In this document: piece after piece, positions 7,308-64,000 of the stretch
How positions within the stretch are numbered: the stretch's first letter is position 1
Layout: every line of letters starts with the position of its first letter
Source of the DNA: Armatimonadota bacterium
GTDB taxonomy: Bacteria > Armatimonadota > HRBIN16
Reading direction: 5' to 3'
NCBI GenBank assembly: GCA_026003195.1
Contig: BPGU01000001.1
Span: 479,298 to 543,297 of the forward strand
DNA length: 64,000 bases
The notes under the pieces: generated by a model
Databases searched by the model: none
Told to the model about the DNA's origin: nothing
What the model saw: the letters and a program-made list of their open reading frames with translations, nothing else
Program-made: the position numbers and the translations under genes

Positions 7308-10301
7308 ATGACACAACCGGTAGCGATTACCCTGAACGATCACACTGCGCTTGGGCAGGTGTTTATCGCCGAGGAGCGGTTTAACCTGCTCTGGGTTTCT
7401 GTGCCCAGCTGGAACGATCACGAAGGGGGATTCACCCTGACATTGTGGGATTCGCCCCACCGCAGACGCCGACTGGCGTCGCAGGCATTTAACGACATCC
7501 GCGACAATAGCAGGGTCGTGCTCATCTTGCCGGAGCCGGTTCCGCCCGGTTCCTACTACTGGGAGATTTCCGAAAGGACAGGCAACACGCGCGTGGGGCT
7601 GTATGCGCATCGTCTGCGGAGCGATGCCTCAGAACCGGCTTATCTGGACGCCCAGCCAGATGCACGTCTGCGCTTTGTGTTCGGGGTGCAATATTCGCCG
7701 TATGCGGGAAAGGGCAAGCGGAGGTCGTGGTGGGCACGCACCCGTCAGACGGCGAGTACGGTAGGCTCCTTTCCCCAGTGGATTTGGTACCCCGAGACGC
7801 CCATTGCCGACAACGCCACACGCTTCTTCCGTAAGAGCTTTGAGGTGCAGGGACGCATTCGGCGAGCGCGGGTGATCGTCACAGGCGATGATGCCTTCAC
7901 CCTGTGGCTCAACGGGCACGAGGTGGCAAAAGGCGGACAGCCCATGCTTCAGGAAGTGGATGTCACCCGTCTGATACACACGGGACGCAATGTGCTGGCA
8001 GCGTCGGTGTTCAATGCTATTGCGCCTGCGGGTTTATTGCTGGAACTGCGTATGGAGGATGCCAGAGGACGAGAGCAAAAGGTGTTTAGCGATCACAGCT
8101 GGTGGTGCAGCAAGCAGGAGTTCCCGCGGTGGCAGGAGATAAATGACGACCACTCTGACTGGGCGCAGGCGGTCATACAGGGTGACGTGTTCGCCGGACC
8201 GTGGTATGGCACGGGCAACATCGCCCGGTACTATCCACACCCGGGGGTGCTGGAGGCACTGGAACCTCTGAAGAGAGAGCCTCCTGTCCGCGCTGAAGTA
8301 CGCGTGCAGCGGGGTGCGCCCAGGTTGTTTCTCAACGGCAAGGAGGTTTTCCCCTTGCTGGCATGGAGCAACGACCTGATAGAGTTCGCGCCCGACTTCA
8401 CTTTTGCCAGCATAGACCTGTTTCATCCACACTATAACCTCGCCGATGGCTGGCGGGAGAACGGAAAGCACGACTGGAGCGGTTTCGTCAACCTGCTATC
8501 GCACCTGTTAGCGGCGAATCCACGAGCCTATTTCCTGGTGCGTTTGGGACTGTTTGCACCCGAATGGTGGAAGGTGAAACATCCCCAAGAACAGATTGGC
8601 TACGCCCTCCCTCTGGACGAACGACAGGGCGAGTTCAGTGGGGTCAGGCATCCTTCGTTCGCCTCAGAAACGTGGCGGCGGGAGACGGAGGTTGTGCTGC
8701 GCCACTTTCTTCGCTTTGTGGAGCAGAGTCCTCTGCGCAGCCGCGTCATCGGCTATCAGATAGCCTATGGTATCTACGGCGAGTGGCATTATTTTGGGGC
8801 ACGCTACCTGCCCGACACCAGTCCGCCGATGCAGCGAGCCTGTGGCGGTGTCCCTCCTGTTGATTCCAGAATGCGGGCTTCGTTGGGGCTGTTTCGCGAC
8901 CCCGCCAGAGAGGGGGACGTTATCCGTTACTATCAGCGTTTCCACGAAGTATGCGCCGACACCCTCCTCTACTTTGCGCGGGTGGTCAAACAGGAAACGC
9001 ACGGCAGGGCATTATGCGGTGCGTTCTATACCTACCTGCTGGAGAACCTGTGGATACAAGAGGGCGGGCATCTCGCGCCTCAGAAGGTGCTGTCCAGCCC
9101 GTACATCGATTTCGTCGCGTGCCCATACGCTTATCAGGGGGATGCTACCGACGGCGCAGGCAACTGGTTGGGGCGTTCTCGGGGCTTGGCAGGCGACGGG
9201 GGGTATCGCGTGTTGCTGGAGAGTATCCAACGGCACGGTAAGATGTACTTCGCGGAGATAGACCCCAGCACCTGTCTGGAAACCCAGCCCGAGAACATGG
9301 GCAACGGAGGTGTGGGGAGCGAAAGCCTGCACGGGAGCCGTTTGATTCTGCGGAGAGATCTCGCCCAGATGATCGCACAGGGCAACGCGGGATGGTTGTT
9401 CGATATCGGTCCGGGTTGGTACGCCGAGCGGGAGTTTCTGGAGGAGATACGTGCTCTGGTGCAACTGGGCAGAGAGCGCGCTCGCTGGAGCTTGCAATCG
9501 CCTGCGCAGGTGGTGGCGGTATTTCAGCCCGAGAGCTTCTTCGTCACTGCGCACTGGAAATCGGCGCCCGGGGCAGGAGAGTACGACCTGTTTGGCGATT
9601 ACTTTCTGAACAGGCAATCTCGCGCCATTCATCGTCTGGGAGCGCCGGTGGACTTTCTGGACCTCGCCGACCTGCGAGAAGACGACGCTCGTCGTTACCG
9701 TCTATTCTTGCTCTGCAACTGTTTTGTCCTGAGCGATGAACAGGTAGAGAGGTTACGCCGTCTTTTGGCGGGAAGCGGTGCCACCGTGGTGTGGTTCTAT
9801 GCGCCCGGTTTCGTCTCTTCAGAGGGGCTTTCGGTGGAGCGTACGAGCCGTTTGACGGGATTTGCCTTGCGCCTGCTGCCTGATGCCGGAAGGATGCTCA
9901 TAGAGGCGTCTGGGAAGACGTTTGGCTTGCCCGGAACACATCAGCCGCGCTTTGTCGTACAAGAGCCTTCTTCGGAGGAGTTAGGTCGGTGGGTAGATGG
10001 TAGCGGTGTGGCTTTTGCCCGCAAGCAGGTGGACGGTTTTACCTCCGTGTATGTGGGTACTGCGCCACTACCTGCCGAGATATTGCGCCAGCTAGCTCTG
10101 CAGGCAGGTGTGACCTTGTGGAGCAGCCAACCAGACGTGGTGTATGCCACCGCGGATGTGGTTTCTGTCACCGCAACAACAACCGGCGCAAGGGAGATTC
10201 GCCTGCCACAGCCGATGCGACGGTGGAGATTTCTCGCTGGCAAGCAACAGGTGTTTGCTCTCAATGTGAGAGAAGGGGAGACGGTGATATTCACTCGCTA
10301 A
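7308..10301 (+). CDS. Large GH42-like putative glycosidase with galactose-binding-like domain
   Basis: Predicted multidomain carbohydrate enzyme, 997 residues, no signal peptide visible. Residues about 165-255 (FFRKSFEV, DAFTLWLNGHEV, GRNVLAASV) resemble the galactose-binding-like domain of family 2 and 78 hydrolases. Residues about 330-680 look like a TIM barrel, with VIGYQIAYGIYGEWHYFG in the position of the acid/base region of family 42. Residues about 690-860 (FGDYFLNRQSRAIHRLGAPVD, DEQVERLRRLLAGSGATVVW) match a beta-galactosidase trimerisation domain. Substrate cannot be read from the sequence. Last gene of the 4791 cluster. Confidence 0.65.
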   Translation: MTQPVAITLNDHTALGQVFIAEERFNLLWVSVPSWNDHEGGFTLTLWDSPHRRRRLASQAFNDIRDNSRVVLILPEPVPPGSYYWEISERTGNTRVGLYAHRLRSDASEPAYLDAQPDARLRFVFGVQYSPYAGKGKRRSWWARTRQTASTVGSFPQWIWYPETPIADNATRFFRKSFEVQGRIRRARVIVTGDDAFTLWLNGHEVAKGGQPMLQEVDVTRLIHTGRNVLAASVFNAIAPAGLLLELRMEDARGREQKVFSDHSWWCSKQEFPRWQEINDDHSDWAQAVIQGDVFAGPWYGTGNIARYYPHPGVLEALEPLKREPPVRAEVRVQRGAPRLFLNGKEVFPLLAWSNDLIEFAPDFTFASIDLFHPHYNLADGWRENGKHDWSGFVNLLSHLLAANPRAYFLVRLGLFAPEWWKVKHPQEQIGYALPLDERQGEFSGVRHPSFASETWRRETEVVLRHFLRFVEQSPLRSRVIGYQIAYGIYGEWHYFGARYLPDTSPPMQRACGGVPPVDSRMRASLGLFRDPAREGDVIRYYQRFHEVCADTLLYFARVVKQETHGRALCGAFYTYLLENLWIQEGGHLAPQKVLSSPYIDFVACPYAYQGDATDGAGNWLGRSRGLAGDGGYRVLLESIQRHGKMYFAEIDPSTCLETQPENMGNGGVGSESLHGSRLILRRDLAQMIAQGNAGWLFDIGPGWYAEREFLEEIRALVQLGRERARWSLQSPAQVVAVFQPESFFVTAHWKSAPGAGEYDLFGDYFLNRQSRAIHRLGAPVDFLDLADLREDDARRYRLFLLCNCFVLSDEQVERLRRLLAGSGATVVWFYAPGFVSSEGLSVERTSRLTGFALRLLPDAGRMLIEASGKTFGLPGTHQPRFVVQEPSSEELGRWVDGSGVAFARKQVDGFTSVYVGTAPLPAEILRQLALQAGVTLWSSQPDVVYATADVVSVTATTTGAREIRLPQPMRRWRFLAGKQQVFALNVREGETVIFTR

Positions 10302-19058: not shown

Positions 19059-21077
19059 ATGAACAGTGTCTTTGACCTGATATGGGTAGTGATTGCCTTG
19101 CCGCTGGCGGGCTTCCTGTTCCACGCCTTCTTCGGGAAGCGCGTGGGCAAGAAGGCGGACGGCACGGTCGGTACAGCGGTGGTGCTGGGTGCATTCGCCC
19201 TGTCTGTGTACCTGTTGCTGGAACTGTTGAGGCTGCCTGCTGAGGAGCGACAGGTTGTCAGCACACTGTGGCGCTGGATAGAGGCGGGCACTTTTCGTGT
19301 TTCCTTCGAGGCTCTGGTAGACCCCCTCTCGCTGCTGATGGCGCTCATCGTCACCGGCGTCGGAGGGTTGATTCACCTCTACTCCACTGGCTACATGGCG
19401 GAGGACGAGGACTATCCGCGCTTCTTCACCTATATGAATCTGTTCATCGTGTTCATGCTCACGCTGGTGCTCAGCAATAACCTGTTAATGATGTTCGTGG
19501 GCTGGGAAGGCGTTGGCTTATGCTCGTATCTGCTCATCGGCTTCTGGTACAGGGACAAGGTGAACACTGATTCGGCGAACAAGGCTTTTATCGTCAACCG
19601 CATCGGCGACTGGGGCTTCATGCTGGCGGTGATACTGTCTTTCTGGACGTTTGGCACGTTGAGCTTCGCCGGTGAAGAGAACATGTTCCAGAAAGCGATA
19701 GAGATGAAGCAGGCGGGGATGCTGGCGCCGGGGGTGATTGCCGCGATTGCTCTGCTGCTGTTCGTGGGAGCAACCGGTAAATCGGCGCAGTTTCCGCTCT
19801 ATATGTGGCTGCCCGATGCCATGGCGGGTCCCACTCCGGTCTCCGCGCTCATTCACGCTGCCACCATGGTGACCGCAGGTGTGGTGATGGTGACGCGGTG
19901 CCATGTGTTCTACGAACTGGCTCCGACGGCGATGCTGGTGGTGGCGGTTATCGGTGTCTTCACCGCGATCTTCGCAGCAACCATCGCCATCGCGCAGACC
20001 GACATCAAGCGCGTGCTGGCGTACTCCACCGTGAGCCAGCTGGGTTACATGTTCCTGGGATGTGGCGTCGGAGCGTTCGCCTCCGGCATGTTCCATGTGA
20101 CCACGCACGCCTTCTTCAAGGCTCTGTTGTTCCTCGGTTCAGGCTCAGTGATACTGGCGATGCACCATGAGCAGGATATGCGGCGCATGGGTGGACTGGC
20201 GAAGTATCTGCCCATCACCTACTGGACAATGCTGGCGGGCTGGCTGGCGATTGCGGGTATTCCGCCACTGGCGGGCTTCTTCTCCAAAGATGAGATTCTG
20301 GCGTCCGCGTTCGGTACGCATGCCCTGCCGGTGAGTATGGGGCAGATTCTGTGGGCGGTGGGTCTGGTCACCGCTCTGTTGACCGCCTTCTACATGACGC
20401 GACTCATGGGCTTGACCTTCTGGGGCGAGCCACGCTGGGCGACCGCACACACTGCGCATCACGGCAAAGACGACGCACATGGTCATCACGGAGAGCCGAG
20501 CGAATCGCCTCCGAGCATGACCATTCCGCTCATGATACTGGCGGTGCTTTCGGTGGTGGGTGGCTTCGTCGGTGGGTTTGCTCCGTTACACATCCCGAAC
20601 CGTTTTGAAGCCTTTCTGGAGCCGTCTGCTGGGTTAAAGGTGCTGGGTGAGGAGGCTCTGGGGCATTTGCCGGTGAGCATCGAGTGGATACTGGTGGGTG
20701 CATCGGTGGCGGCGGCGGTGCTGGGCATCTGGTTCGGCTGGGCGCGCTACCGTGCAGGCTTACCTGAAAACGAACGTGAGCTGGCTGGAGTGCGCAAAGT
20801 GCTATACAACCAGTACTACTATGACTGGCTGATGGTCAAGGGTATCGGGCTGTGGTTGGGCGGCAAGATAGCCCACTGGATGTGGCAATTCGTCGACGTG
20901 CGCCTCATTGACGGACTGGTGAACGGTATTGCAGGCTTCACGGGCTGGACAGGCAACCGACTGCGGCGTGTACAGACTGGCTATGTGCGAAACTACGCCT
21001 TCACCATCCTGATAGGTGCCATTGTGCTGTTGATATGGTTTCTGGTGCGAGGAGCAAGTGCAGGTTTGACGAGGTAG
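19059..21077 (+). CDS. nuoL: NADH-quinone oxidoreductase subunit L
   Basis: Distal antiporter-like proton-pumping subunit, 672 residues. Landmarks: MFVGWEGVGLCSYLLIGFWY, FIVNRIGDWGFML, KSAQFPLYMWLPDAMAGPTP, SALIHAATMVTAGV and TTHAFFKALLFLGSGSVILA. The C-terminal lateral-helix region is present. I use ATG 19059; a TTG immediately before is also in frame. nuoM follows after 3 bp. Confidence 0.97.
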   Translation: MNSVFDLIWVVIALPLAGFLFHAFFGKRVGKKADGTVGTAVVLGAFALSVYLLLELLRLPAEERQVVSTLWRWIEAGTFRVSFEALVDPLSLLMALIVTGVGGLIHLYSTGYMAEDEDYPRFFTYMNLFIVFMLTLVLSNNLLMMFVGWEGVGLCSYLLIGFWYRDKVNTDSANKAFIVNRIGDWGFMLAVILSFWTFGTLSFAGEENMFQKAIEMKQAGMLAPGVIAAIALLLFVGATGKSAQFPLYMWLPDAMAGPTPVSALIHAATMVTAGVVMVTRCHVFYELAPTAMLVVAVIGVFTAIFAATIAIAQTDIKRVLAYSTVSQLGYMFLGCGVGAFASGMFHVTTHAFFKALLFLGSGSVILAMHHEQDMRRMGGLAKYLPITYWTMLAGWLAIAGIPPLAGFFSKDEILASAFGTHALPVSMGQILWAVGLVTALLTAFYMTRLMGLTFWGEPRWATAHTAHHGKDDAHGHHGEPSESPPSMTIPLMILAVLSVVGGFVGGFAPLHIPNRFEAFLEPSAGLKVLGEEALGHLPVSIEWILVGASVAAAVLGIWFGWARYRAGLPENERELAGVRKVLYNQYYYDWLMVKGIGLWLGGKIAHWMWQFVDVRLIDGLVNGIAGFTGWTGNRLRRVQTGYVRNYAFTILIGAIVLLIWFLVRGASAGLTR

Positions 21078-56092: not shown

Positions 56093-56121
56093 TTGACGTA
56101 CGCTTCGTTTTGGACTATAAT
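56093..56121 (+). promoter_or_regulatory. Promoter of the tRNA genes
   Basis: TTGACG (56093-56098) and TATAAT (56116-56121) with a 17-bp spacer, 15 bp before tRNA-Pro. Confidence 0.8.
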
Positions 56122-56135
56122 AATAGCGCAGTGGT

Positions 56136-56212
56136 CGGGGTGTAGCTCAGGTTGGTAGAGCGCTTGGTTTGGGACCAAGAGGTCGCTGGTTCGAGTCCAG
56201 TCACCCCGACCA
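56136..56212 (+). tRNA. tRNA-Pro (UGG)
   Basis: Cloverleaf with acceptor CGGGGTG/CACCCCG, anticodon stem CTTGG/CCAAG around loop TTTGGGA giving anticodon TGG, T-arm GCTGG-TTCGAGT-CCAGT (one G-T pair) and encoded CCA (56210-56212). Confidence 0.96.
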
Positions 56213-56217
56213 TGTGA

Positions 56218-56291
56218 GCGGGGGTAGCTCAATGGCAGAGCTCCAGCCTTCCAAGCTGGCGGTGCGGGTTCGATTCCCGTCCCCCGCTCCA
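56218..56291 (+). tRNA. tRNA-Gly (UCC), probable integration site
   Basis: Acceptor GCGGGGG/CCCCCGC, anticodon stem CCAGC/GCTGG around CTTCCAA giving anticodon TCC, T-arm with GGTTCGATTCC, encoded CCA (56289-56291). An integrase gene starts 93 bp downstream, so the 3' half is a likely attachment site; the copy expected at the other end of the element is not in the window. Confidence 0.95.
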
Positions 56292-56384
56292 GAACTACTA
56301 CATGTTGTGCCCCTGAAGCCTCTTCGCAGTTGAACCGCACAAGATGTTGTGTCCTCACACAAGCACAAACGGGAGGAGGACACT

Positions 56385-57314
56385 ATGCAGAACGCCAGCC
56401 TGCACATCACTGACACAAGCACGCTGTATGTTACTCTACAGCTGTGGTTAGAGGCTTTACAGGCACGTGGAGCCTCTGCACGGACACTCAAAAACTACCG
56501 TGAAAGCGTAACGCCTTTCATCACCTTCCTGACACAGCAAGGTTGCTTCGCCTTAGAGGACGTGCAACCTGTGCACATCCGCAGGTGGTTACTCCACCGC
56601 CAGCAGCAGAACCTCAGCACGCATACCCTGCACAATAGCTACCGCAACCCTCGCGCTTTCTGGAACTGGTGCATCCGTGAGGGACTGACCGAACACAACC
56701 CCTTCGCGAAGGTGGAACCGCCCAAGCGCGAACAGGTGCTTAAACCTGCCCTGACGCCTGAAGAGGTGGAGAAACTGCTGCAGGCGTGCACTGGCAAGGA
56801 CTGGCTGAATCTTCGCGACAGGGCATTGATTCTGCTGTTGCTGGACACGGGACTGCGCATCCACGAGTGTCACCAGTTGCGCGTGGGCGACGTAGCAGGT
56901 GACACGGTAGTCATCAAGGGCAAAGGCGGTAAACAGCGCGTGGTGGTGTTGAGTGCAGAGGTGAGGCTTGCGGTGCAACGTTACCTGAAGGCTTACCAGA
57001 CACAGCACGGTGTGAAACTGCAGGCAGACAGCCCTCTGTGGTGGGGAGCCTCTGGCGCGTTGACCCTGCACGGCATCAAGCTGGCAGTGCGCAAGGCAGG
57101 CAAGCGTGCAGGCTTGCGGTTGGGAGCGCACCAGTTAAGGCGCACCTTCGCCACGTGGAGCCTGCGTGCAGGGATTGACCTGGAGCACCTGAGGCTTCTC
57201 ATGGGACACAGCGACCTGAAGACGACGCAGGTATACCTGTCTCTGGTGGAGCAAGACCTGAAGCAGGCGCACCAGCAACACAGTCCGTTGAATCTTCTCA
57301 GAGGGCGCAGGTAG
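56385..57314 (+). CDS. Tyrosine recombinase / integrase
   Basis: 309-residue XerC/D-like integrase. N-terminal SAM-like core-binding domain (residues about 15-105) and a catalytic domain with R158 (DTGLRIHE), a Lys in KGKGGKQR (about 181-183), H249-x2-R252 (AHQLRRTFA), H275 (LMGHSDLKTT) and the nucleophile Y284 (VYLSL). All catalytic residues are present. ATG 56385 after GGGAGGAGG. The position next to tRNA-Gly and the gene content that follows mark it as the integrase of a mobile element. Confidence 0.93.
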   Translation: MQNASLHITDTSTLYVTLQLWLEALQARGASARTLKNYRESVTPFITFLTQQGCFALEDVQPVHIRRWLLHRQQQNLSTHTLHNSYRNPRAFWNWCIREGLTEHNPFAKVEPPKREQVLKPALTPEEVEKLLQACTGKDWLNLRDRALILLLLDTGLRIHECHQLRVGDVAGDTVVIKGKGGKQRVVVLSAEVRLAVQRYLKAYQTQHGVKLQADSPLWWGASGALTLHGIKLAVRKAGKRAGLRLGAHQLRRTFATWSLRAGIDLEHLRLLMGHSDLKTTQVYLSLVEQDLKQAHQQHSPLNLLRGRR

Positions 57315-57321
57315 AACAGAG

Positions 57322-57387
57322 GCGGGCGCGTGGACTGGACTGGTGGGCATTCGGAAGATTCAGGCAATCGGCGTCCACGCGCCCGCC
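57322..57387. repeat. 15-bp perfect inverted repeat after the integrase gene
   Basis: GGCGGGCGCGTGGAC (57322-57336) and GTCCACGCGCCCGCC (57373-57387), 36-nt loop, 8 bp after the integrase stop. Possibly a terminator without U-tract, or a structured site for recombination or replication. The rest of 57315-57541 holds no gene I can support. Confidence 0.6.
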
Positions 57388-57541
57388 CCAGCACAGGCAA
57401 CGCAGGTGAAACAAAGATGAACGTAGAAGTGTCTATACAGATGAAGCGTGTCGGTGCAGAGGGACGCCTCTGCCGTAAGTGTCCACTGCCCTGTCCAGTG
57501 GACAGCCGACACGCGAACAACGCCTGACAGGGAGGTTGCGT

Positions 57542-58504
57542 ATGCCAAAATACAAGTCTACCCCATTCATCACAGAGGAAGCCGAACCCGTTCTACCCGC
57601 AGATGAGGAGATTCTCCGAAGGGCAGTTACCACAGCAGCTCAGCTTCGTATGCGAACAACAGCCTCCGACGGTTTGCTTCTGCTCGGCAAGCACATGTTT
57701 GAGGAGCCTGTAGATGACAGGGCAATAGTAAACCGTTTTCTTAATACTGTGGAGGCAGCTGCTGTAATAACAGGCGACACACTGGCAAAGCGTAACTGCA
57801 AGCAGGCTTCCCGATTCAGAGAATGTGCCAATACTATGTTGCTGCTCAAACGCATCCTGAACAGCCCACCTGCAGACATCAAGCCTAACGAATGGAGCCA
57901 TGCTGTATTGTTAGTTGCATGGGTGACGATGGTAGGGTACGTGCCTGTGGAGGATTGGGCAATTGCCTTCCCCCTTGCGGCGACCTCTGCAGTAGGGTAT
58001 GGCATGACATTCGCCAGCTTTGAACGACTCTTTGGTGCTTCTAATCCTGTCGCTCTAGCTGACGCTGTTGCCCACATACTTGCGCCAGATGTAGAGACAG
58101 CAGTGATTGACAAGCGATTTGAGACAGCACGTAAACCACTTTCAAAGCGAAGACTCAAACAGCAATTCGTTCGTTTTCTCGCGTTGGAACATGCGCTTGA
58201 AAAGATGAACGAAAAGCACCCCCTTGCTTCGGCACTGGAAACACTAGTAGCCGACTTACCTGAAGACGAGCCCTCACCTGTGGAACTTGCCCCCAGCAAT
58301 GAACCTGACCCCTTAGAGGTGGTAGCAGATGAGGACGCTGTGAACCGCGCACTGGCACGCTTGGGTAAACGTACTGCTGACCTGTTACGCCTCATGATGG
58401 AAGGCAAGAGCGCAAGCGAAGCTGCAGAGGAACTTGGGATCAGTCCAAGCACCGCCCGAACACTTCTGGAACGCGCCCGCAAACAATTTTCGCGAACACC
58501 CTGA
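57542..58504 (+). CDS. Element protein with sigma-region-4-like C-terminal HTH
   Basis: 320 residues, unknown family. The first 220 residues are mostly helical without clear motif. After an acidic linker (EDEPSPVELAPSNEPDPLEV) the last 55 residues, NRALARLGKRTADLLRLMME then ASEAAEELGISPSTARTLLE-RARKQF, form a sigma region 4 / LuxR-type helix-turn-helix. ATG 57542 after GGGAGG. A transcriptional regulator of the element is likely. Codon use is less GC3-rich than the chromosome upstream, consistent with transfer. Confidence 0.65.
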   Translation: MPKYKSTPFITEEAEPVLPADEEILRRAVTTAAQLRMRTTASDGLLLLGKHMFEEPVDDRAIVNRFLNTVEAAAVITGDTLAKRNCKQASRFRECANTMLLLKRILNSPPADIKPNEWSHAVLLVAWVTMVGYVPVEDWAIAFPLAATSAVGYGMTFASFERLFGASNPVALADAVAHILAPDVETAVIDKRFETARKPLSKRRLKQQFVRFLALEHALEKMNEKHPLASALETLVADLPEDEPSPVELAPSNEPDPLEVVADEDAVNRALARLGKRTADLLRLMMEGKSASEAAEELGISPSTARTLLERARKQFSRTP

Positions 58505-58532
58505 AAATTGCCCCAAAGCTGTAGACGTTTTG

Positions 58533-58575
58533 CCCCCTCTCGGGTGCTTATATAGTGGAGGACAACGAGAGGGGG
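58533..58575 (+). promoter_or_regulatory. Inverted repeat that can pair with the ribosome site of the next gene
   Basis: CCCCCTCTCG (58533-58542) and CGAGAGGGGG (58566-58575) are a perfect 10-bp inverted repeat with a 23-nt loop. The right arm is the G-rich ribosome site of the ATG at 58583, so the hairpin would hide it. A TTATAT in the loop could instead be a -10, in which case the arms would be an operator. Confidence 0.5.
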
Positions 58576-58582
58576 TTTTCGT

Positions 58583-58783
58583 ATGCCGAAGGCTATACTG
58601 GTGACCGACATCCGCCACTCTGACCGCCCCCTACTGGCGAGCAGTGACCCTGAGGTACTGCGGGCGGTTGGCGAAGCGATTAAGGCACTGTTTGACCGTT
58701 GGGAAGCAGAAGCACGCGCTGACATTGAGGTAGAACGCCTGCGGCGACTGGTGGAGGGCGACGGGGATGATTCCACAGAGTGA
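58583..58783 (+). CDS. Small element protein
   Basis: 66 residues, acidic and helical (VLRAVGEAIKALFDRWEAEA, RADIEVERLRRLVEG). No known family. ATG 58583 follows GAGAGGGGG. It overlaps the primase-helicase gene by 17 bp and is probably translated with it. The opening MPKAILVTDIRHSDRPLLAS recalls no motif I know. Confidence 0.6.
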   Translation: MPKAILVTDIRHSDRPLLASSDPEVLRAVGEAIKALFDRWEAEARADIEVERLRRLVEGDGDDSTE

Positions 58784-60485
58784 CTTGAAGGACGTCGCCA
58801 TTCGCTACCAACGCGCAGGCTTGAGCATCCTGCCCATACGCGCCGACGGCAGCAAAGCACCAGCACTGAAGACTTGGGAACCGCTTCAGAAGCGACTGCC
58901 CACTGAAGATGAGATTCGCGAATGGTTCGGCAACGGTGCACGGCGTGGCGTCGCTGTGGTGTGTGGCGCAGTGTCTGGTGGACTATACGCCCTCGACCTT
59001 GACGACCTGACCATCGGCGAAGCGTTCATCACCGAACTGCTGGCTTACGACAGCGAACTGCTGTTCGCCATGCCACAGTGTCGCACACCACGACCTGGCA
59101 AGAGACTGTTCTTTCGGTATGATGGCGAACTGCACTCCACCGTGCTGGCGTACCGCGTGGACGCTGACGGGCGTAAGCGTGAGGCGATTGCGCTGATTGG
59201 GGACGGCAAGTACAGCATCGTGCCACCAACGCCTGCAGAGTGCCATGAGAACCGCAAGCCCTACGAGTGGGTGCGTGGTGACTTAACCAGTGTGCCGACA
59301 CTGAGTGATGAACAGCTGGAAGACATTCTCGCACTGGCACGGCTGTTTGACGAAGCCCCCAAGCCAGAACCTGCCCCCTTGCGCGTCACTGGGGAAGCAC
59401 AGCGCGTCGGCGACAGGTTCAATCAAGAGGGCGACGTGCTGGAGTTGCTACAGCGTCACGGTTGGCGTGTTGCTGGCAACGGGCGCGAGGGCAACATCTA
59501 CCTGACCCGTCCAGGCAAACCGCGTGGTGTGTCGGCGTCATGGCATCCCCAGTTGGGCACGCTGTATGTGTTCACCACGAACGCGCCACCCTTTGAGGCA
59601 GGACGTGCTTATTCGCCCTTCGCGGTATACACCCTGTTAGAGCATGGTGGCGACTTCTCTGCTGCTGCGAAGGCACTGGCAAAGCAGTATGGCAAAGGGC
59701 ACAGAATGGAACCCGAACGTCTTGCCCCACCAGTGGACTGGGCAGGCTTCCTGCGACCGTTGAAAGAGGTGGAAGCCCTCCCTGTAGACTGGTTACTGCC
59801 GAACCTGCTGGCGCGTGGCGAGATTACCATACTGGCAGGAGAAGCAGGTGCAGGCAAGACCACGCTTGCTTTGGAGATTGCCCACGCGCTGACCCGTGAT
59901 GACACCACGCTGGGCGAACGTCCACAATCACAGGCGCGTGTTGTGTGGTTGCATTATGACCACAGCGAGGGACGCATCCGTGAGAAGTATGAGCAGACCT
60001 ACGGCGAGGAGCCTGAGTTCATGACGCCCAACATGAACAAACTGGAAGAGGCAGGCATGTTGCGCTTAACGCCTGACACGGTGCATCTGTGGGCGTCCAT
60101 GTTGATTGCTTACGGGACAGAATGCCTGATTGTGGACACGCTTAACGACTGGCTTGGCTGTGATGACACGGACAAGGAGAGTAAGGTTCGCCCGTTGATG
60201 AACGCACTTCGCCAGTTGGTGGAGAAGACAGGCGTTGCCGTGTTGGCAATCCACCACCCGAACAAGGCAAGCACCCTGAAGCGTGTGACCGCACTGGCGA
60301 ACAGTTACGTGTTTGGCGCGAAGGCTGACACGGTTGCTTTGCTGGCAGACCCTGACGGCGAACCGTCGGCGACAGAGGTACAGCTGCGCGTGGTGACAGT
60401 GCCGAAGTGCGTGAAAGGTGGCAGGCAACATACGCCAAGCACTTCGGGCGGTTCGCACCTGTGCAGGGCGAGGAGAGACCGCTGA
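58767..60485 (+). CDS. Primase-polymerase/RepA-like helicase, frameshifted near its C-terminus
   Basis: 572 codons as read. Residues about 8-190 are a Prim-Pol domain (AIRYQRAGLSILPI, the catalytic DLD in LYALDLDDL at 75-80, RTPRPGKRLFF). Residues about 335-545 are an AAA ATPase with Walker A GEAGAGKTT (358-366), Walker B-like ECLIVDTLNDW and AIHHPNK. After VVTVPK at 60407 the frame becomes unlike protein (25 codons), while the plus-one frame from the same point continues sensibly in the next feature. One missing G in AAGTGCG would join them to about 725 residues. Likely the replication initiator of the element. Confidence 0.85.
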   Translation: MIPQSDLKDVAIRYQRAGLSILPIRADGSKAPALKTWEPLQKRLPTEDEIREWFGNGARRGVAVVCGAVSGGLYALDLDDLTIGEAFITELLAYDSELLFAMPQCRTPRPGKRLFFRYDGELHSTVLAYRVDADGRKREAIALIGDGKYSIVPPTPAECHENRKPYEWVRGDLTSVPTLSDEQLEDILALARLFDEAPKPEPAPLRVTGEAQRVGDRFNQEGDVLELLQRHGWRVAGNGREGNIYLTRPGKPRGVSASWHPQLGTLYVFTTNAPPFEAGRAYSPFAVYTLLEHGGDFSAAAKALAKQYGKGHRMEPERLAPPVDWAGFLRPLKEVEALPVDWLLPNLLARGEITILAGEAGAGKTTLALEIAHALTRDDTTLGERPQSQARVVWLHYDHSEGRIREKYEQTYGEEPEFMTPNMNKLEEAGMLRLTPDTVHLWASMLIAYGTECLIVDTLNDWLGCDDTDKESKVRPLMNALRQLVEKTGVAVLAIHHPNKASTLKRVTALANSYVFGAKADTVALLADPDGEPSATEVQLRVVTVPKCVKGGRQHTPSTSGGSHLCRARRDR

Positions 60486-60943
60486 CGTTGCAGGAACGCA
60501 TCGTACAGTTTGTGCGGACACAGGGGAACTGCACGCGCAAGCAGCTGCTGGAGGCATTCGGTAGTGAGGCTTCGGAAGACACGCTTGACCGTCTGCTGAA
60601 AACACTGGTGCGAAGAGGGACGACTGGCACGAAGCGCGCGCGGCTGGCTACAAGAACAGCGAACGAACGTACGCCATCACCACAGGTAACAATCAAACTG
60701 CACACCCCTGCCTGTGTGGTAGCAATTAAGGTTCCGCAAACTATTGCGGACCAACCTACGGAACCTACGGAAACTACGGTAAACAGCGGAAACGCTACCG
60801 AAGACTCAGAACCGTCTACGGTGTGTTGGACACCGTTTACACCGGTTCCGACGGTTTCCGAGAGGTTCAACAGCAACGTCATCACGACACACTCTGCGGA
60901 GACTAGAGGATTCCGTACCCAACAGCAGACCTGTTACCGTTGA
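60407..60943 (+). CDS. C-terminal part of the primase-helicase in the shifted frame
   Basis: 178 codons from a GTG at 60407, VRERWQATYAKHFGRFAPVQ then a winged-helix-like region RPLTLQERIVQFVRTQGNCT, RKQLLEAFGSEASEDTLDRL, typical of the end of RepA-like helicases. It lacks a ribosome site and begins exactly where the upstream domain ends, so it is the displaced C-terminus rather than a separate gene. The last 70 codons are low-complexity (Thr, Pro, Glu) and lie over repeat-rich DNA. Confidence 0.6.
   Translation: MRERWQATYAKHFGRFAPVQGEERPLTLQERIVQFVRTQGNCTRKQLLEAFGSEASEDTLDRLLKTLVRRGTTGTKRARLATRTANERTPSPQVTIKLHTPACVVAIKVPQTIADQPTEPTETTVNSGNATEDSEPSTVCWTPFTPVPTVSERFNSNVITTHSAETRGFRTQQQTCYR
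60733..60836. repeat. Inverted and tandem short repeats upstream of the iterons
   Basis: Within the shifted C-terminal frame: TCCGCAA-acta-TTGCGGA (60733-60750), three CTACGG units at about 10-bp period (60756-60779) and ACGGTGT-gttgg-ACACCGT (60818-60836). The helical phasing and palindromes suggest protein binding. Confidence 0.5.
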
Positions 60944-60955
60944 CATCTCGCACCT

Positions 60956-61053
60956 AACAGTAAAGCCGTTTACTGTTGAAGCTCCACCTAACAGTAAACG
61001 CTGTTACTGTTGATGATTCCGAATCAGGCTCCAACAGTAAAGCGGTTACTGTT
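60956..61053. repeat. Three palindromic iteron-like repeats (origin or operator candidate)
   Basis: Three copies of AACAGTAA...TTACTGTT: 60956-60977 (9-bp arms, 4-bp centre), 60990-61011 (8-bp arms, 6-bp centre), 61033-61053 (8-bp arms, 5-bp centre), each followed by GA. A half-site variant CTGTTACCGTTGA lies at 60931-60943. Start-to-start spacing is 34 and 43 bp. Their place directly after the replication gene fits an origin bound by the initiator; an operator for the downstream genes is the alternative. Confidence 0.65.
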
Positions 61054-61239
61054 GATCCTGAGGATGATTCTGACATCCCTGATTACCGCACAGCAGTCAT
61101 ACCACTGCGTGACGGTGTGGCAGCATGGTGCGACACCTGCGGGTGTTCTATGCTACATGAGCTAACTCGTGATGGGCACTGGCGTTGTGTTGACTGTGGC
61201 AGTTTGAGGACATTCGCGAAGGAGGTATTGAACACATGA
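60976..61239 (+). CDS. Small zinc-ribbon protein
   Basis: The C-terminal part is convincing: WCDTCGCSMLHELTRDGHWR, CVDCGS, two CxxC pairs of a zinc ribbon. The start is uncertain: TTG 60976 begins inside the first iteron and would put a Ser/Asp/Val-rich stretch encoded by the repeats at the N-terminus; a GTG near 61116 is possible. Its stop overlaps the next gene's ATG, and GGAGG lies in its last codons, supporting that this frame is translated. Confidence 0.55.
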   Translation: MKLHLTVNAVTVDDSESGSNSKAVTVDPEDDSDIPDYRTAVIPLRDGVAAWCDTCGCSMLHELTRDGHWRCVDCGSLRTFAKEVLNT

Positions 61240-61649
61240 ACCTGACCTGTGACCGGTGTGGGCAGCCGATTCGCAGCTGGCGCGAACTGGTGGTGTGGTG
61301 CGACAGCGGGAAGGCACAGCAGTCTCGGCAGGAGTTTGAGGCATGGGAACGCAAGCGCACCCGTGAAGGTGAGGACGCACTTGCTAACGGTGACATGGAC
61401 GCCTGGCTGAAGACGGTGGTGTACCCTCTGTCTGAACTGACCAGATTGAAACTGGAGCCCTGGCTGGTGGTGCATCTGGACTGCATCACTGATGAGGAGT
61501 GGGAATGGGGTTACCCCATTGAGGGCAGACGGATTAACACGGTGCGCAAAGCCCTCGTGTGGACGCTACACCTGCAGGAGAAGGTCTGGTTTGATTTTAC
61601 AGACTGGCGTGGCGTAATGCACAAACTGTTTGGAATACCAGAGGTGTGA
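61236..61649 (+). CDS. Small element protein with N-terminal zinc-binding pair
   Basis: 137 residues. Starts MNLTCDRCGQPI, a CxxC pair with a further Cys in VVWCDSG and a H-x-D-C (VVHLDC), then an aromatic region. Function unknown; a nucleic-acid-binding or structural role is conceivable. ATG 61236 overlaps the zinc-ribbon stop. Confidence 0.65.
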   Translation: MNLTCDRCGQPIRSWRELVVWCDSGKAQQSRQEFEAWERKRTREGEDALANGDMDAWLKTVVYPLSELTRLKLEPWLVVHLDCITDEEWEWGYPIEGRRINTVRKALVWTLHLQEKVWFDFTDWRGVMHKLFGIPEV

Positions 61650-61728
61650 ACGATTAGGTAGCCCCCGCCTCAGGGCGGTTGACATAGACAGACGAAACAC
61701 GAACACAACACACAAAGGAGGTAACGTC

Positions 61729-62199
61729 ATGAAACTGCTGGTGACAGCACAAGCACAGACCTTGCCTGACGACGTGTACACCGTTGAACTGCTGGACGTG
61801 AAGGAGCAGACCGGAACCTACGGCGAGCAGTTCGTGTGGCAGTTGCGCGTGGCAGAAGGCGAGTATGAGGGCGCGGAACTGCGGGCGTGGACGAACGCCA
61901 GCACAGCGGTCAACGCGAAGGCGGTGAAGTGGGCAGCAGCTTTCAACGGCAAGCCCTACGCGCAGGGTGACGTGCTGGACTTCGACGCCCTGCAGGGCAA
62001 GCGTGCCCGCGCGGTGGTGCAGGTCAAGCAGACGGCAGACGGGCGCGAGTTTGCGCGTGTGACCGACATCCTGCCCCTGAAGCGCGTGCAGGCACAGGTG
62101 CGCGTGAAGCATGGCATGGTGGCGGTTCCTGCCACCAAACAGGGGTTCTACGAGATGGCAGACGAGGAAGACCCTGACGACCCCTTCGCGCAGGCGTAA
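61729..62199 (+). CDS. Phage-type OB-fold/single-strand-binding-like protein
   Basis: 156 residues. VYTVELLDVKEQTGTYGEQF, VWQLRVAEGEYEGAELRAW, RARAVVQVKQTADGREFARV then TDILPL is the beta-strand pattern of small OB-fold proteins found next to phage and plasmid replication genes. The end (EEDPDDPFAQA) is the acidic tail often seen in SSBs. ATG 61729 after AAAGGAGG. Assignment by pattern only. Confidence 0.6.
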   Translation: MKLLVTAQAQTLPDDVYTVELLDVKEQTGTYGEQFVWQLRVAEGEYEGAELRAWTNASTAVNAKAVKWAAAFNGKPYAQGDVLDFDALQGKRARAVVQVKQTADGREFARVTDILPLKRVQAQVRVKHGMVAVPATKQGFYEMADEEDPDDPFAQA

Positions 62200-62208
62200 G
62201 AGAGGGAA

Positions 62209-62236
62209 GCGGGCAGGGCGCGCGCGCCCTGCCCGC
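62209..62236. terminator. 28-bp perfect palindrome after the OB-fold gene
   Basis: Arms GCGGGCAGGGCGCG and CGCGCCCTGCCCGC with no loop, 9 bp after the stop at 62199. Nearly identical to the element at 63246. GC-only stem, no U-tract. Confidence 0.6.
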
Positions 62237-62268
62237 CCCCAAACACCAAACGAAAGGAGTGTATTCAG

Positions 62269-62620
62269 ATGCAAAGCACAGTTACACGAACAGCAAGGCG
62301 AGTCCTCTACACCCGTGACGGCAGGCACAGCGGTTGTGTGCTGGAGCAGGGCATCCTGAAGCGCAGGGTGCAGGCGAGCCGTCACCAGTTGCGACACCCC
62401 CCTGCGTGGGCATTTGAGCGCAACATCCTGGAGCAGGCACATGAGGCAGGCGCGTCACTGGTGGAGGTTCACGACGTGGAGAACGGCATCACCTACACTG
62501 CCCCACTGGCGACGGTGTGGCAGAAGGGCATCCGCATTCAGCGCGGACACGGTGAGCAGATTGCCCTGCCGTCTGAATCTGTGGCACACCGAAGACCCGA
62601 AGCAAGGCAGGCTGTTCTGA
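62269..62620 (+). CDS. Element protein with apparent frameshift
   Basis: ATG 62269 after AAAGGAG opens a frame with SLVEVHDVENGITYTAPLAT, VWQKGIRIQRGHGEQIALP. Read straight it continues to 62790 with a Cys/Arg-rich, unnatural tail. If the T at 62572 is an insertion the protein instead ends LNLWHTEDPKQGRLF at 62620 (116 residues), a far more protein-like finish. I give the restored end. Function unknown. Confidence 0.5.
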
Positions 62621-62624
62621 AGCA

Positions 62625-62780
62625 GTGGCAACCGCGGCGCACTGCCCAGCACGCGCAGAAGCGATTGTGCGCTACCTGCAGAAGCGGTGGCGCGTGCTGT
62701 GCTCGCAGTCGTGGCACGTGGATGGACTGCGTTACGCGGACGTGCCAGACAGTCTTCGCACTGCTGGCCTGGCAGGTTGA
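62625..62780 (+). CDS. Possible 51-residue protein
   Basis: GTG 62625 to TGA 62780, starting 4 bp after the restored end of the previous gene. It reads AEAIVRYLQKRWRVLCSQSW then HVDGLRYADVPDSLRTAGLA, with helix-like periodicity and normal composition, unlike the overlapping frame. Weak ribosome site. From 62781 to 63022 I see no supportable gene. Confidence 0.35.
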   Translation: MATAAHCPARAEAIVRYLQKRWRVLCSQSWHVDGLRYADVPDSLRTAGLAG

Positions 62781-63022
62781 TTGCCCTTGAGGTCTAGTCA
62801 GGCTGGCTCGCCAGACTGTCCTCCACCGTCTGAGGCGCGTTCTGTGAGAGCCTGACAGCCTCAGGTCGCGGTCGTGCCTCGCCGGAGACGCCACAGCACT
62901 GGCTAGTGCGCCAGTTGGAGGCCCGCGCTGGCGTCCCGCAGGTGCAGGTCTGCCTGTGGACAGCCTCAGCCCTGCCTCGGAAAAGCATAGAGACTGAACG
63001 AACCTTGAGGAGGTGAACAGCA

Positions 63023-63244
63023 ATGACACACAACCTTTGCAGGGACGCGGTAGTCAACATGCAACACGCTACAGGCGCGTTACGGCGGTTGTATACTCTG
63101 GTGGCGATGGGCGCGGTTCCTTCGCGTGAGGACTACGCGCAGGTGCACCGACAGGCGACGGAACTGAATCAAGCCTTTCACCGTCTGTTGAAGGCACTGA
63201 AGGCGCAGGGCGTGTTTGAGGAAGTGGAGATTGTAGATGAGTGA
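63023..63244 (+). CDS. Small helical element protein
   Basis: 73 residues: MTHNLCRDAVVNMQHATGAL, RRLYTLVAMG, then a helix QVHRQATELNQAFHRLLKAL and acidic end EEVEIVDE. ATG 63023 after GAGGAGGTG. No known family. The palindrome at 63246 follows its stop directly. Confidence 0.6.
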   Translation: MTHNLCRDAVVNMQHATGALRRLYTLVAMGAVPSREDYAQVHRQATELNQAFHRLLKALKAQGVFEEVEIVDE

Positions 63245-63245
63245 C

Positions 63246-63273
63246 GCGGGCAGGGCGCGTGCGCCCTGCCCGC
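63246..63273. terminator. Second copy of the 28-bp GC hairpin
   Basis: GCGGGCAGGGCGC-gt-GCGCCCTGCCCGC, one base different from the copy at 62209. It lies between the stop of the plus-strand gene (63244) and the end of the convergent minus-strand gene (63289), so it could terminate both. Confidence 0.6.
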
Positions 63274-63288
63274 TACAACCTCACCAGT

Positions 63289-63549
63289 TCAGGCGTCCAG
63301 TGTTTCTCTAAGCAGTTGCAGGCATTCGCGCAACACCTTTTCGACCCGCGTAGCTGGTATGTGCAGGATGGTGGCAATAGTGCTGGGGTTATACTCCATG
63401 CCATAGCGCAGGGCGATGATGGTGATGGCGTCGATTCCGCGTGAGGTGTAAATCTTCTGTAGAGCCTGCAGCAGGTCTGTGGAGCGTTCAATCTGGGGAA
63501 AGGCATCGGGAGCGGTGTAATCTGTGAGGTCTACGTGGTTATTCTGCAT
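63289..63549 (-). CDS. Sigma region 4-like protein (second half of a split sigma factor)
   Basis: 86 residues from ATG 63549, preceded by AAAGGAG at proper spacing. The C-terminal 55 residues, LLQALQKIYTSRGIDAITII, ALRYGMEYNPSTIATILHIP, ATRVEKVLRECLQLLRE, match the region 4 helix-turn-helix that binds the -35 element and the beta flap. There is no region 2. The region 2 partner is the gene just upstream; its stop is 5 bp away. Works presumably as a pair, as SigO and RsoA do in Bacillus. Confidence 0.65.
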   Translation of the reverse strand: MQNNHVDLTDYTAPDAFPQIERSTDLLQALQKIYTSRGIDAITIIALRYGMEYNPSTIATILHIPATRVEKVLRECLQLLRETLDA

Positions 63550-63553
63550 GGTA

Positions 63554-63895
63554 TTACTCCTTTGCGTTATAGTCTTCAATTATGCTTTCCAGCGACACGG
63601 TAGGCAGTCTTCGATGCAGGTAAGTGCGCATGATGGATTTGAAGTGGTGGCGTATTCTCCAGCTGAGCCACTGTTGCAGAGAGACTTTGCTGTCTGGGTT
63701 ATAGCGCGTCCATTGACGCCAGAGGGCGATTCGAAGTTCCTGCTCCACGTCTTCGGGCGGTATGCCCAGCTTCAACACGAGGTAGTTGACGTACCCTGTA
63801 TGGATGCGCAGGTATTGGGCGAGAACCTGTTCTGCTATACGGTCGCTGTATGCTGGGTTCCCCTCCAGCAGAGTTTTCAGGGTGCGTTGCTCCAC
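63554..63895 (-). CDS. Sigma region 2-like protein (first half of a split sigma factor)
   Basis: 113 residues from GTG 63895 (a GTG at 63904 would add three); GAGGTGAT lies five bases before 63895. Residues about 25-95, YLRIHTGYVNYLVLKLGIPP, EDVEQELRIALWRQWTRYNP, VSLQQWLSWRIRHHFKSIMR, match ECF region 2 (core binding and -10 recognition). The frame ends after VSLESIIEDYNAKE without region 4. It does not look truncated: the stop is followed by a well-placed ribosome site and ATG for the region 4 gene. Confidence 0.7.
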   Translation of the reverse strand: MEQRTLKTLLEGNPAYSDRIAEQVLAQYLRIHTGYVNYLVLKLGIPPEDVEQELRIALWRQWTRYNPDSKVSLQQWLSWRIRHHFKSIMRTYLHRRLPTVSLESIIEDYNAKE

Positions 63896-64000
63896 AGGAA
63901 TCACCTCAGCTACTACATCTTGGGTTTACAAAACTGGACAGAATTGAACAAGTTTTCTTACAATTCGCGCGGGCAGGCGTTGACTCCTGTGGTTAGCGGA

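Follow-up and report, generated by a model that had tools for sequence, protein, structure and literature searches.

Two-protein sigma factors have been described in Bacillus subtilis and in phage T4. In B. subtilis, the region 2 and region 4 functions lie on two co-encoded proteins, SigO and RsoA, according to the accessible portions of PMC8103513 and PMC10028694, and the latter states that SigO and RsoA must cooperate at the target promoter. A table excerpted from PMC10141391 assigns the domains of the pair differently from these two papers. The late sigma of T4 is likewise made of two proteins, gp55 and gp33, and is called a split sigma in the excerpts of PMC2988020 and PMC7892883, where gp55 is of the region-2 type. 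The same excerpt of PMC2988020 describes gp33 as having no recognisable sigma homology and no sequence-specific DNA binding. Region 2 of sigma contacts the beta-prime clamp of RNA polymerase and region 4 the beta flap (PMC7892883, in the part available). Our search for split, bipartite or two-subunit sigmas, phage satellites and Armatimonadota, made in open-licence literature where absence is weak evidence, returned papers on, or citing, the Bacillus pair and a peptide-selection use of the term "split sigma factor".

Split sigmas are therefore already known (SigO-RsoA; T4 gp55/gp33), and the pair analyzed here is a further variant. It lies at the end of a 64,000-nucleotide stretch of an Armatimonadota genome (the window; contig BPGU01000001.1, positions 479,298 to 543,297) and consists of r2, a sigma region-2-only protein, and r4, a sigma region-4-only protein. 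In our assessment, r2 and r4 are probably the two halves of one ECF-type sigma; jointly they are predicted to engage the core RNA polymerase of the host, which they likely direct to late-type promoters of the element and its kin. In domain layout the pair resembles SigO-RsoA, as region 2 and region 4 again belong to two proteins with neighbouring genes. It differs in that Bacillus belongs to another phylum and that r2 and r4 lie on mobile elements; in addition, their order is exchangeable, a prophage has them unlinked, and in one relative they are fused. As in T4, a phage late sigma would be made as two proteins, of which gp55 is a region-2 type like r2. In contrast to gp33, which lacks recognisable sigma homology, r4 is a relative of region 4 and not a sigma-unrelated flap binder.

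Results and Discussion

Domain Content and Gene Layout

The r2 gene occupies 63554-63904 on the minus strand. Read from a GTG at 63904 it encodes 116 aa, while an alternative GTG at 63895 (113 aa), at which the database copy P0004 (113 aa) begins, is preceded by GAGGTG at a better spacing. The r4 gene (63289-63549, minus strand) starts with ATG and encodes 86 aa. The preliminary description had assigned regions 2 and 4 to two separate adjacent genes, and the domain searches agreed. The only Pfam match of r2 (E up to 10) was Sigma70_r2 (E 5e-8, 33 bits, cut-off 24), whereas Sigma70_r4 was the best of four matches of r4 (E up to 10), at E 2.8e-5 and 24.0 bits against a cut-off of 24.1. Other domain and fold comparisons concurred with Pfam on the region-2 domain, and AlphaFold2 modeled r2 with a pLDDT of 87.5. 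The region-4 domain, borderline in Pfam, was backed by further domain and fold comparisons and by the fused relative P0041. Against the ECF (Group IV) model TIGR02937, of 165 positions, r2 covered positions 4-72 and r4 positions 106-164. Alone, the two scored 26.4 and 21.4 bits, respectively, both below the cut-off of 42.9, and P0041 scored 55.7. Unlike an ECF sigma, which carries both domains on one polypeptide, r2 and r4 are two polypeptides cut in the linker, encoded by separate genes in different frames and found in both orders. NCBIfam listed no SigO- or RsoA-named model on the window proteins, a result with no bearing on homology either way.

A ribosome-binding site for r4, AAAGGAG (63557-63563, minus strand), lies inside the last r2 codons and 7 nt ahead of the r4 ATG, so that the earlier reading of r4 as a gene with its own site and start was upheld. 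The distance from the r2 stop to the r4 ATG, previously given as 5 bp, was measured as 4 nt (TACC). Since the r4 site sits within r2, synthesis of the two proteins is likely coordinated where r2 comes first. The r4 frame stays open for 10 codons 5' of its ATG, and the relative at G009:C59 has GCAGGAGTAA in place of the AAAGGAG. On the other side of r4, an inverted repeat in the sequence (hairpin, 63246-63273) separates it from a convergent 73-aa gene, and the stretch spanning it (63214-63276) is 96.8% identical to one in the element of the sister genome G005.

The Mobile Element of the Window

The pair belongs to a mobile element whose left attachment repeat (56247-56292, plus strand) is the 3' part of a tRNA-Gly gene (56218-56291, ARAGORN); its 46 bp are perfectly repeated beyond the window, at L008 11787-11832. 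The left arm, all on the plus strand, encodes a tyrosine integrase (56349-57314; Pfam Phage_integrase, 104 bits), a 320-aa protein X (57542-58504), a PrimPol plus AAA ATPase (58767-60485; Pfam Prim-Pol and AAA_25), small genes, and the 73-aa gene ending at 63244, beyond which lie r4 and r2 on the minus strand. The pair, being convergent with the left-arm genes, is not the promoter-distal end of their operon, contrary to what had been proposed. The region-4-like HTH noted earlier at the end of the 57542 gene was found at residues 266-315 of X (Pfam Sigma70_r4_2, 38 bits). In the C4, G005 and G007 elements, counterparts of X, which the preliminary description put forward as a possible alternative partner, have integrase and PrimPol/ATPase genes as neighbours, and this suggests a role of its own for X. 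A defence-gene scan of six element proteins gave one weak CARF match, located at this HTH. In the 97% identical G005 element, the PrimPol frame (L029 1699-4134) encodes 811 aa, against 572 aa in the window (region 58767-60943), whose copy thus appears to be interrupted.

Directly beyond the window end, upstream of r2, the scaffold is broken by a gap of 100 N, and past it plus-strand genes run to the right attachment repeat. None of five right-arm genes matched PHROGs at E 0.01. The final right-arm gene (789 aa) is 54% identical (438/808) to the last large gene before the attachment site of a phage on contig C14, and distantly related (25%, E 8e-26) to the last large gene of the resident prophage late operon. 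Based on this kinship, the right arm looks phage-derived. The element is either one prophage or a small element beside one, and the deciding stretch falls in the scaffold gap.

Homologues and Selection

A single-sequence search with r2 returned 8 proteins of 104-118 aa. An r2 profile search, which scored the 7,992 candidates sharing most words at lengths up to about 203 aa, gave 52 matches: 44 at E <= 4.4e-21 and 8 weaker, 3 of these of ordinary sigma length. Among the 44 strong matches, 43 stand alone (93-150 aa, with window and sister copies counted) and one, P0041, is fused. All 14 matches of the r4 profile stand alone (84-96 aa), in a search whose length range shut out fused proteins. For 10 of these 14, r2 was placed on the same contig, in 3 cases as read in DNA and in 7 as judged from equal contig size only; one of the latter, P0025, appears frame-shifted. 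For 34 of the 44 close r2 matches, which lie on contigs of up to 42.9 kb, no r4 turned up on the contig, in searches that at first also overlooked a divergent prophage r4. In 291 genomes of the phylum, with up to 16 candidates scored per genome, strong r2 matches (E < 1e-30) occurred at only 7 loci in four genomes of one genus (frames of 104-178 aa); the remaining matches listed had E above 1e-5 and frames of 164-372 aa.

The preliminary description had held that the split would fall if close homologues proved to be single ordinary sigma factors, with the halves separated only here. One fused relative does exist, and the split is not confined to this locus but seen at many. In P0041 (192 aa, on a contig of 4,224 bp), residues 1-104 align with the r2 profile (E 6e-32, 46% identity) and residues 115-183 with the r4 profile (E 3e-12, 36% identity). 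We regard this fusion as the best available evidence that r2 and r4 would act together. Within-type dN/dS was 0.14-0.25 for r2 and 0.21-0.46 for r4, at dS of 0.76-1.36, and both halves are judged from these ratios to be under purifying selection. The distances of r2 and r4 correlated at r = 0.89 over 8 pairs, a value reached by 287 of 40,320 permutations. We rejected co-evolution of the halves as its source: the correlation stems from the split between the two gene orders and is not found within types.

In phage collections, r2 and r4 had no match among 50,697 phage records, and no relative was confirmed in viral contigs queried with r2, its profile, the r4 profile or P0041. Five weak loci came up in the viral contigs with a profile built from 12 wider r2 homologues; two of them (L052 and L055) each have a 183-aa frame, and that of L052 holds regions 2 and 4 in one protein. 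P0046 as query gave one phage match, at E 0.6.

Gene Order and Exchange among Elements

The same pair, which the preliminary description proposed seeking in other integrated elements, was located at five loci read in DNA, in three genomes. The order is r2-r4 in the window (G000:C1) and at G009:C59, and r4-r2 at G000:C4, G005:C2 and G009:C100, with 85-94 nt from stop to start in the latter three. In G007, r2 has a TAG inside the matched stretch, and the r4 profile search there gave no match. Identity between the G005 element and the window is 97.1% over 56119-63032 and 99.5% over 63033-63222; past the equivalent of 63222, the G005 element carries the reversed cassette at the place of the window r2-r4. 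At G009:C59, the leader and first codons of a reversed cassette are joined to an r2-first cassette. The G005 swap and this junction indicate that exchange involves the two halves as one unit. The C4 element occupies 7.0 kb between two tRNA-Arg copies and contains an integrase, X, an AAA ATPase, a nuclease and an r4-r2 pair; ten of its frames were compared with PHROGs, and none hit a capsid or terminase family (E 0.01).

Ahead of r4, the reversed cassettes carry a sigma70-like promoter (TTGACA/G, 17-18 bp, TAnnnT), which suggests that in this arrangement r4 and r2 may be switched on separately. By eye, the leaders of these cassettes (L003 2180-2380, L028 18440-18671, L026 8290-8520, L030 780-1010) show an inverted repeat spanning the -35/-10 and a strongly conserved hairpin ahead of r4, possibly an operator and an attenuator. 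On L028, a gene 3' of the reversed pair and convergent with it (19422-19817) encodes a 131-aa protein that has paired cysteines and matches HTH families only weakly; the gene may serve packaging or regulation in the small element.

The Resident Prophage

A prophage in the same genome carries an r2 (C1:655508) identical to the window r2 at 56/102 residues (55%), followed by a small-terminase-like gene and then the large terminase. Neither Pfam Sigma70_r4_2 nor a two-row r4 profile found a region-4 partner near this r2. With the fused P0041 as query, and only then, a 78-aa frame appeared at C1:671374-671610 (E 2.8e-7), about 16 kb away. This prophage r4 is the last gene, after a 759-aa protein and ahead of a GC-rich hairpin. 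It aligned to the r4 profile at an hhalign E of 2.3e-8 and is 41% identical to P0041 over 71 residues; its Pfam Sigma70_r4_2 score was weak (18.2 bits, cut-off 25.7), and at E 0.01 it had no match in the other nine genomes of the genus. Between the prophage r2 and r4, every frame above 170 aa is on the plus strand, which places the two genes at opposite ends of a late operon, about 16 kb long, that would be read as one transcript.

Several other features of the resident phages were observed. An IS110-type transposase gene lies on the left side of the prophage (L009 6320-7552), where no integrase was noticed. A short coding repeat of 80-91% identity is common to an element gene (window 60932-61060) and a prophage gene (L009 8522-8838), which is another sign of exchange between the two. 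The C14 phage (L011 2842-10526), with a tRNA-Gly-like attachment copy at 2943-2990, encodes a distant region-2-only protein (8494-8826, 29.4 bits), then a small gene, then the large terminase. This protein possibly represents a second family of region-2-only late genes.

A Shared Upstream Site

Upstream of the window r2, a 39-bp stretch (63925-63963, plus strand) is 94.9% identical in blastn to L009 9926-9964, 43 nt before the prophage r2. Overlapping it is a 15-bp site, GTTTTCTTACAATTC (63952-63966, plus strand), directed away from r2. Across the 4.58-Mb genome there are 4 exact copies of the pattern GTTWTCTTACAAWWC, and 3 of the 4 lie just upstream of the three strong r2-family genes of this genome. 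Base composition predicts 0.016 per genome and the reversed-pattern control gave 0 occurrences, although the pattern was written from the sites themselves and the count is descriptive. The fourth exact site (C2:708324) is inside a 1,703-aa frame, with an integrase gene in the region and no r2-family gene downstream, and we leave it as chance or unexplained. Variants occur in G005 (1 mismatch) and at G009:C100 (2 mismatches), and the site is absent from G009:C59. In the prophage, C4, G005 and G009:C100, the site is directed toward r2; in the window it is directed away from r2, toward the genes across the scaffold gap. The site is likely a late-type promoter or operator, and we infer that the r2/r4 pair would be what reads it as a promoter.

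Proposed Mechanism and Alternative Explanations

All 12 r2 proteins of r2-r4 and r4-r2 pairs end in a VSLE-type tail, a pattern defined after viewing this paired set. The tail is absent from most r2 homologues for which no r4 was seen; P0011, P0035 and P0039 carry it although no r4 was seen for them, and it is missing from the prophage r2 despite an r4 16 kb away. It is likely the stump of a linker, of which the r2 tail and the r4 N-terminus would be the two cut ends. In the proposed mechanism, r2 and r4 are predicted to assemble on the host RNA polymerase and to start transcription at late-type promoters. The r2 protein would sit on the beta-prime clamp and open the -10 region, r4 would sit on the beta flap and read the -35 region, and both would be needed for initiation, by analogy with SigO-RsoA. 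Binding to the polymerase and the identity of the promoter are inferred. A broader scheme is doubtful but carries some tentative weight. A phage family would have cut its late sigma and placed region 2 first and region 4 last in the late operon. The full factor would then form only after whole-operon read-through, as a completion-checked AND gate locking late transcription on. On small capsid-less elements, the two halves would travel as a closed cassette that can be exchanged and that would take over the same late promoter.

One alternative to split halves is that r2 acts alone as a gp55-like, region-2-only late factor, with r4 an independent DNA-binding regulator or co-activator. The 34 of 44 close r2 matches without an r4 found on the contig would fit, with the caveat that the r4 searches first missed the prophage r4 too, as would the prophage r2 without a linker-like tail and the T4 late promoters, which require no region-4 equivalent according to the available part of PMC2988020. 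Yet the fused P0041, the adjacency of r2 and r4 in both orders, their joint exchange and the linker-like tail of all 12 paired r2 proteins speak for a common function, and we consider the gp55-like reading unlikely. It is quite improbable, in our estimate, that the pair of the small elements is instead an interference device competing with the split sigma of the resident phage for RNA polymerase or for the shared late promoter. The 55% identity (56/102) of element and prophage r2, their common upstream site, and the 7-kb C4 element between tRNA-Arg copies, with 0/10 frames matching capsid or terminase PHROGs (E 0.01), are compatible with such a device; both halves, however, appear to be complete working domains.

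Accidents or tricks of reading frame at the r2-r4 junction deserve very little credence. The 4-nt gap between window genes in different frames, together with the 192-aa fused P0041, could be taken to mean that an ordinary fused factor was split by a stop or frameshift and that the two frames are remnants. That this happened is highly improbable, given that r4 has its own start and ribosome site, that 43 of 44 close r2 matches stand alone, and that the prophage halves are 16 kb apart; the reversed order in 3/5 loci we count as already refuting it. A frameshifted or decayed sigma was rejected on account of this reversed order, the purifying selection acting on r2 and r4 alike, and how far stand-alone halves have spread. 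Still less credible is a programmed frameshift near the r2 end by which the r2-first arrangement would yield a fused sigma. The 10 codons before the r4 ATG are open in its frame and the fused length would equal that of an ECF sigma, but r4 has a well-spaced ribosome site and ATG of its own, and the reversed order is unable to fuse in this way. The split-sigma reading of the preliminary description is supported by the stand-alone homologues of each half, the two gene orders, the separated prophage halves and the fused relative, which together back it better than the window sequence could by itself.

Conclusions

Natural two-protein sigmas are few in the sources as available to us: SigO-RsoA, plus T4 gp55/gp33 as a functional analogue. 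Among the related mobile elements described here, the same sigma would be found fused, split in either order, or split across a whole operon. With the r2/r4 family it becomes possible to test how a sigma functions once the linker is gone, whether a phage programme gains an AND gate when its sigma is split, and in what way small integrative elements may tap phage late transcription.
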